Source: Ruminiclostridium sp.
Lineage (GTDB): Bacteria; Bacillota; Clostridia; DSM-8532
Length of the DNA stretch: 33,533 nt
NCBI GenBank assembly: GCA_012523055.1
Contig: JAAYJG010000322.1
Coordinates: 1 to 33,533, forward strand
Reading direction: 5' to 3'
How positions within the stretch are numbered: the stretch's first letter is position 1; each line of letters opens with the position of its first letter. A program made the position numbers and the translations under genes. Positions 2,727 to 31,220 of the stretch are shown one piece after another. Below the pieces are notes generated by a model, which searched no databases, had not been told where the DNA came from, and worked only from the letters and a program-made list of their open reading frames with translations.

Positions 2727-2896
2727 TTATAACAACGTAAGCGATTGCTTGCAATCGCAACACACTGTTATATCGAGGCGGGAGATATGCTCGTCGCCTG
2801 ATTAAGGTAATCGGTACCCGCCACCACACGTTTTTCAGCCCTTGGCTGAAAATACGTTAAGAGGTGGGGCGGGGACCCATCTAGGCCTCGTTATAT
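2727..2896. repeat. Intergenic structured repeat, copy E1 (modular hairpin plus conserved core)
   Basis: Core TATATCGAGGCGGGAGATATGCTCG...GGTACCCGCCACCACACGTTTTTCAGCC...GGCCTCGTTATAT is nearly identical to 11311-11441. Nested inverted repeats throughout. Confidence 0.85.
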
Positions 2897-11202: not shown

Positions 11203-11441
11203 CTCGTTATAACAACGGAAGCGATTGCTTGCAATCGCAACACACTGTTATTGCAACGGCAGGTTTTGCTTTAGCAAAACCATCACACTGCAACAACGAA
11301 GCTTCAGCTTCGTTATATCGAGGCGGGAGATATGCTCGCCGTCTGATTAAGGTGATCGGTACCCGCCACCACACGTTTTTCAGCCCATAGCTGAAAATAC
11401 GTTAAGAGGTGGGGTGGGGGACCATCGGGCCTCGTTATATT
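11203..11441. repeat. Intergenic structured repeat, copy E2 (expanded 5' modules plus conserved core)
   Basis: Near-identical core to E1 (2727-2896), plus an additional internal-loop hairpin module (11251-11293) and a simple hairpin AACGAAGC-TTCA-GCTTCGTT (11295-11314). Confidence 0.85.
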
Positions 11442-15082: not shown

Positions 15083-15152
15083 TGTCATCCTGAGCACAGC
15101 GAAGGATCTTGTCAGGAGTAATGCGAGATCCTTCACTTCGTTCAGCAGGCTG
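15083..15152. repeat. REP-like interspersed repeat (TGTCATCCTGAGC...GCGAAGGATCT/AGATCCTTC)
   Basis: GAAGGATCT...AGATCCTTC inverted repeat. The TGTCATCCTGAGC motif recurs reverse-complemented at 31177-31210. Confidence 0.75.
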
Positions 15153-31170: not shown

Positions 31171-31220
31171 ACTGCGCTCAGGATGACATCGCTGCGCTCA
31201 GGATGACATCGTTGCGCTCA
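31171..31220. repeat. 20-bp tandem repeat (x2.5) of GCTGCGCTCAGGATGACATC
   Basis: actgcgctcaggatgacatc / gctgcgctcaggatgacatc / gttgcgctcag; contains the reverse complement of the TGTCATCCTGAGC motif at 15083. Confidence 0.85.

Follow-up and report, generated by a model that had tools for sequence, protein, structure and literature searches.

The paired hairpin modules of E1 and E2 belong to two of about 40 copies of a single interspersed element in the genome from which the window (the whole 33,533-nucleotide stretch of Ruminiclostridium sp. DNA that was analysed) derives, and we consider these copies to be probable non-autonomous, MITE-like mobile elements with a BOX-like modular build, in which the folded strand would be recognised and the left arm would act as an outward promoter. 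When this genome (G000; 4.13 Mb in 564 contigs) was searched, the left and the right part each had 47 matches, fragments counted, and 38 of the 47 right-part matches span at least about 100 bases of that part. The complete copies start with TATAAC, end with GTTATA and are 130–351 nt long; they are thus short, gene-less and dispersed in many copies, as MITEs are, with a terminal inverted repeat identity of only 6 bp (TATAAC/GTTATA). Each is built from a left hairpin with a conserved internal loop (the P hairpin) and a right domain (CGAGGC...GCCTCG), with TATA at either end, and the spread in length is due to extra hairpin modules at fixed places. The shortest copy consists of one left hairpin and a right domain with a short TATAGA loop, while longer copies have a CACG...CGTTAAGAG hairpin added in the TATAGA loop, more hairpins 3' of the left hairpin, and one hairpin inside GGGAGAT/ATGCTCGCC. 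The parts of E1 and E2 are listed in Table 1.

Table 1. Parts of E2 and E1 and their positions in the window
Feature	Position	Strand	Description
E2, whole element	11208-11439	+	232 nt; TATA ends 11208-11211 and 11436-11439
E2 module 1 (P hairpin)	11208-11251	+	TATAACAACGGAAGCGATTGC-TT-GCAATCGCAACACACTGTTAT
E2 module 1, outer stem	11209-11214 with 11246-11251	+	ATAACA with TGTTAT; direct reading
E2 module 2 (P hairpin, stems differ from module 1)	11249-11293	+	TATTGCAACGGCAGGTTTTGC-TTTA-GCAAAACCATCACACTGCAA
E2 module 2, outer stem	11251-11255 with 11289-11293	+	TTGCA with TGCAA; direct reading
E2 module 3 (plain hairpin)	11295-11314	+	AACGAAGC-TTCA-GCTTCGTT
E2 right domain	11319-11434	+	CGAGGC...GCCTCG
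E2 right domain, two inner hairpins	within 11319-11434	+	GGGAGATATGCTCGCC; long CCGCCACC...GGTGGGG
E2 left arm, outward promoter-like sequence	11206-11234	-	TTGCAA, 17 nt, TATAAC; last base from flank
E1, whole element	2728-2895	+	168 nt; single P hairpin
E1 P hairpin	2728-2770 (module read at 2729-2771)	+	internal loop ACGTAA / AACACAC
E1 right domain	2774-2890	+	CGAGGC...GCCTCG

In both E2 modules and in that of E1 the pairing is as the earlier note had claimed, and all stems were confirmed by direct reading; the outer stems of the two E2 modules overlap at base 11251, which can pair in only one of them at a time. Folding gave z = -6.1 for E2 as RNA and z = -6.5 for E1 as DNA. The right boundary had been placed too early, since the element runs on to 11439 in E2 and to 2895 in E1. 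It had also been proposed that the module is being duplicated in tandem, which did not hold for E2: the same chain of modules 1, 2 and 3 recurs in many other copies, ruling out a fresh duplication there and indicating that the three-hairpin chain was inherited. Elsewhere tandem duplication does occur, with true arrays of 74-nt units at L110, L112 and L182. In other copies of the element, the position of module 3 is held by AAGGTTCTT-type hairpins instead.

A covariance model was built from 26 modules, and in the genome it recovered E2 module 1, E2 module 2 and the E1 module with E-values of 6e-16, 5e-16 and 1e-13, respectively; as both E2 module sequences are part of the training set, the weight of the E-values lies on the further copies and the other genomes. 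The 62 distinct modules from the loci collected to that point have more than 10 different inner stems, all perfectly or nearly paired, although this list is in itself no evidence of pairing because the search demanded at least five inner pairs. Standard pairs filled 93.9% of the pair cells in the 26 selected modules versus 76.6% after shuffling (score 0.459 vs 0.143), while in the 69 distinct model matches, with an alignment that leans towards the model to which it was fitted, the inner stem was 97.3% paired (score 0.382 vs 0.117 shuffled), and since these figures count sequences and not independent events, part of the covariation could stem from array copying or palindrome correction. The pairing of either set was not matched by any shuffle (500 for the 69 modules) or by any slid register, and one pair position among the 69 uses all four Watson-Crick types. 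The outer stems covary too (TAA/TTA, TAG/CTA, TTG/CAA), CAACRGMA and AWCACAC, the two strands of the internal loop, are kept across modules, and further hairpins of this family, AAGGTTCTT-stem-AAGGTTCTT among them, show similar stem variation. The right domain, which is alignable across families, showed little covariation with RNAalifold (covariation term -0.37). As the stems change sequence while staying paired, it seems to be the folded shape of the hairpin which is kept, and not the sequence of its stems.

In the earlier note, the module had been interpreted as an RNA or ssDNA motif under selection and centred on a conserved internal loop, and three outcomes had been named that would speak against this: no further copies in the genome, no covariation with more sequences, or a match to a known RNA family. 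None of these was obtained, as the model found 128 modules in the source genome, the covariation persisted in the larger set, and an Rfam scan of the window (4227 models) gave nothing above the gathering threshold. The motif is hence supported, whereas it had been missed that the module forms the left end of a dispersed, probably mobile element with fixed ends and a second structured domain. When seven element loci were scanned against Rfam at E<=1, nothing was returned except an L20 leader and one miRNA match due to chance, both outside the elements. Our literature search found no published description of the element, and published text matching its sequence came from unrelated papers only.

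Within the source family, the covariance model counted 59 modules in G020 (Thermoclostridium sp. bin_309), 30 in G017, 19 in G025, 11 each in G015 and G016, and 10 in G019, and none across the 14 genomes of genus g2. A class-level search of 391 genomes gave a match in 13, including members of families f21, f22, f50, f54 and f67. Elements with the same architecture were present in G204, G280, G389 and Herbivorax; those of f21, f22 and f50 have the same ends and a similar right domain with different stems, the Herbivorax elements have the same ends and again different stems, and the loop strands in these other families of Clostridia and in Herbivorax are the same despite the different stems. In G204, an assembly consisting of a single contig, all copies read are short, and a left P hairpin is located 69–130 nt upstream of 9/10 right ends, with no P hairpin within the 330 nt read at the tenth (L303). 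Plasmid, phage and viral collections gave no match to the element queries used.

The flanking sequences, together with one clean empty site and a second consistent one, suggest that the element inserts at TTATAW and that TATA then stands on both of its sides. The end sequences of E2 were also found in the 42 copies used for flank comparison, where the base preceding TATAAC is a T in 39/42 and the base following GTTATA is an A or T in 42/42. At L125 in Herbivorax, an IS91 transposase frame becomes continuous across its zinc-binding motif once the element is taken out and one TATA left, and the restored frame has Pfam matches to Zn_Tnp_IS91 and Y2_Tnp. This is the only clean empty site: the comparison of L018 with L120 would fit an empty site with a single TATA or TATT but rests on a diverged neighbour, while the orthologous comparisons L020/L134 and L046/L133 gave no clear element boundaries. 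L280 and L286, with TTAA at the left end and TATA at the right end, do not match a strict 4-bp duplication. On the padR side of E2, DNA similarity with G019, G001 and G009 stops about 50–65 bases short of the element, and in G001, the only genome read beyond this point, the stretch read ahead of the padR homologue holds no E2 counterpart. At a second Herbivorax locus (L148, about 2160-2240), an element joins a tyrosine-recombinase-like frame to the IS91-type transposase frame of L125, an arrangement such as recombination between two copies might leave.

Read on the minus strand, the left arm resembles an outward promoter, with TTGCAA, a 17 nt spacer and TATAA completed by a base from the flank, and solo half-sites of this arm mostly retain TATAAT. 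A diverging gene was located on the promoter side of 16/27 solo half-sites versus 3/27 on the other side (Fisher p = 0.0004), with gene starts taken from a simple ORF rule rather than from annotation, and with a flank threshold shortened post hoc, as an earlier test with longer flanks was too small (7/8 vs 3/8). There was no gene-side bias for whole elements (6/21 vs 7/21). Several genera within the family have such solo half-sites, one of which precedes a ybaB-like gene in G019, and their position suggests that they serve host genes. The flank-completed -10 sequence is TATAAA in E1 and TATAAC in E2, where the final C explains why the site was missed by a promoter scan, and padR has its own promoter-like site (TTGACA-17-TATTAT) upstream, closer to the gene than that of E2; for these reasons we make no claim that E1 or E2 drive genes. 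A bare half-site (L119 in G019) and a hairpin element (L108 in G020) are both positioned upstream of what, by eye, seems to be the same ybaB-type gene.

In the mechanism that we propose, insertion at TTATAW would leave TATA on both sides, copies would grow or shrink through gain or loss of whole hairpin modules at fixed places, and the left arm would also act as an outward promoter, with its half-sites used by host genes. The folded single strand, either DNA or RNA, would be what is recognised, most likely by an enzyme supplied in trans which moves the element, and such recognition would account for covarying stems next to constant loop strands. No autonomous copy or transposase gene with these ends was found among the copies read. 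An IS630/mariner partner was rejected, as DDE_3 (PF13358) transposases are absent from the incomplete assemblies of G000, G019 and G020, and no consistent Y1 partner emerged, as Y1 genes are present but uncorrelated with carriage. It is unlikely that the hairpins are REP-like sites at which a Y1 (HUH) RAYT/IS200 transposase binds the single strand, with the GMAG at the hairpin foot resembling the GTAG tag and with insertion beside TATA without duplication. Such an arrangement would suit the presence of RAYT genes in the two genomes richest in modules within the genus (three in G000 and one in G020, none in G019), the promoter motif or half-site adjoining three of these four genes, the TTAA/TATA mismatch of L280 and L286, and the way in which REP families likewise keep their tag while their stems take alternative complementary bases (PMC3733652). 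However, the RAYT genes of C256 and C413 are immediately flanked by a different palindrome, GGGGACGGTTCT, the hairpin foot reads CRGMAG and not GTAG, the carriers G016, G017 and G395 have no Y1 match whereas the non-carrier G012 has one, and G204 has 15 Y1 matches versus only 10 short elements, none of which was seen with a Y1 gene. Four RAYT-like genes (Y1_Tnp) were recorded at L236, L237, L238 and L239, with GGGGACGGTTCT palindromes near L236 and L238.

The behaviour of the half-sites could also be taken to mean that the main role of the module is regulatory, as RNA or DNA, be it a promoter with operator or a processed RNA, and that it is under host selection and disperses only secondarily. 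We regard this as improbable: the retained TATAAT, the position of solo half-sites upstream of diverging genes and their recurrence in several genera agree with it, but whole elements are unbiased, E2 has a TATAAC next to a padR gene with a nearer promoter-like site, and the neighbouring genes at the few loci read have no obvious function in common. An equally poor prospect is that the covariation is neutral, with template switching at quasi-palindromes copying arm onto arm and so giving pairing without selection. There are perfectly healed palindromes at L016, L018 and L145, and units of one array have stems in common, yet copying should heal the internal loop as well, and most modules, in different families too, retain its two non-complementary strands. 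One might suspect that the hairpins are due to chance or are an artefact of assembly, given the many contigs which often end in the element, but the strong model E-values across genomes, including that of the single-contig G204, and the shuffle tests with 69 modules refute this, and we give it practically no credence. Beyond our preferred reading of a mobile element with a recognised folded strand, a bolder version is conceivable though doubtful, in which this is a gene-less mobile element found Clostridia-wide, with its fixed-loop shape recognised regardless of the stems by machinery that is neither of the IS630 type nor a known Y1 system, and with growth by the addition of modules.

We judge the element family to be new, and nearest in build to BOX, with this comparison made on architecture only. 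To our knowledge, BOX, RUP and Correia elements have been described from one or few genera, and their mobilising partner is mostly not known. RUP shares its ends with IS630-Spn1, whereas the ends found here match only over TATAAC, and the DDE_3 transposase is lacking in the three assemblies named above. Integron attC sites are imperfect single-strand hairpins that have AAC/GTT feet and are unpaired in the middle, a resemblance which is a lead only, as the internal-loop sequence is conserved in our element and no cassettes were seen. The BOX elements of Streptococcus pneumoniae and S. suis (boxA-boxB(n)-boxC) are modular interspersed repeats with variable inner modules and pairing ends, and each of BOX, RUP and SPRITE can insert into the others (PMC3049150). 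The end modules and variable number of inner hairpin modules are thus in common with BOX, while here the inner modules differ in their stems but not in their internal loop, TTATAW is the apparent target, and the element is present in several bacterial families. As with RUP and Correia/NEMIS, the element is short and structured with TA-type termini; the outward promoter sequence is a likeness to Correia, and insertion into transposase genes one to RUP and the Neisseria elements (PMC2229807, PMC10969869). The GTAG/CGTC REPs also have a short tag at the hairpin foot and subfamilies with alternative complementary stems, but the element described here lacks the GTAG tag, is long and has a second domain; GTAG repeats have been reported in Proteobacteria, Cyanobacteria, Chloroflexi and the PVC phyla (PMC3733652).

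Across families, the element keeps its architecture while its stems are rewritten, and so offers a natural set of compensatory mutants with which to test if mobility depends on the shape of the single strand. New promoters and additional hairpins also seem to arise from it, as does, in one genome (G007, L074), a portion of a protein-coding frame, so that it may serve as a way for genomes to acquire regulatory and coding sequence. At L074 (contig C160, around 1424-2651), a right-domain-like copy is in frame within an isopropylmalate-dehydrogenase-like frame (Pfam Iso_dh), as an N-terminal extension. Finally, the window contains a separate string, CTGCGCTCAGGATGACATCG, which is present twice in tandem at 31172-31211 and once, partial and inverted, at 15083-15102, and which is also found at other loci of the same genome (L202).
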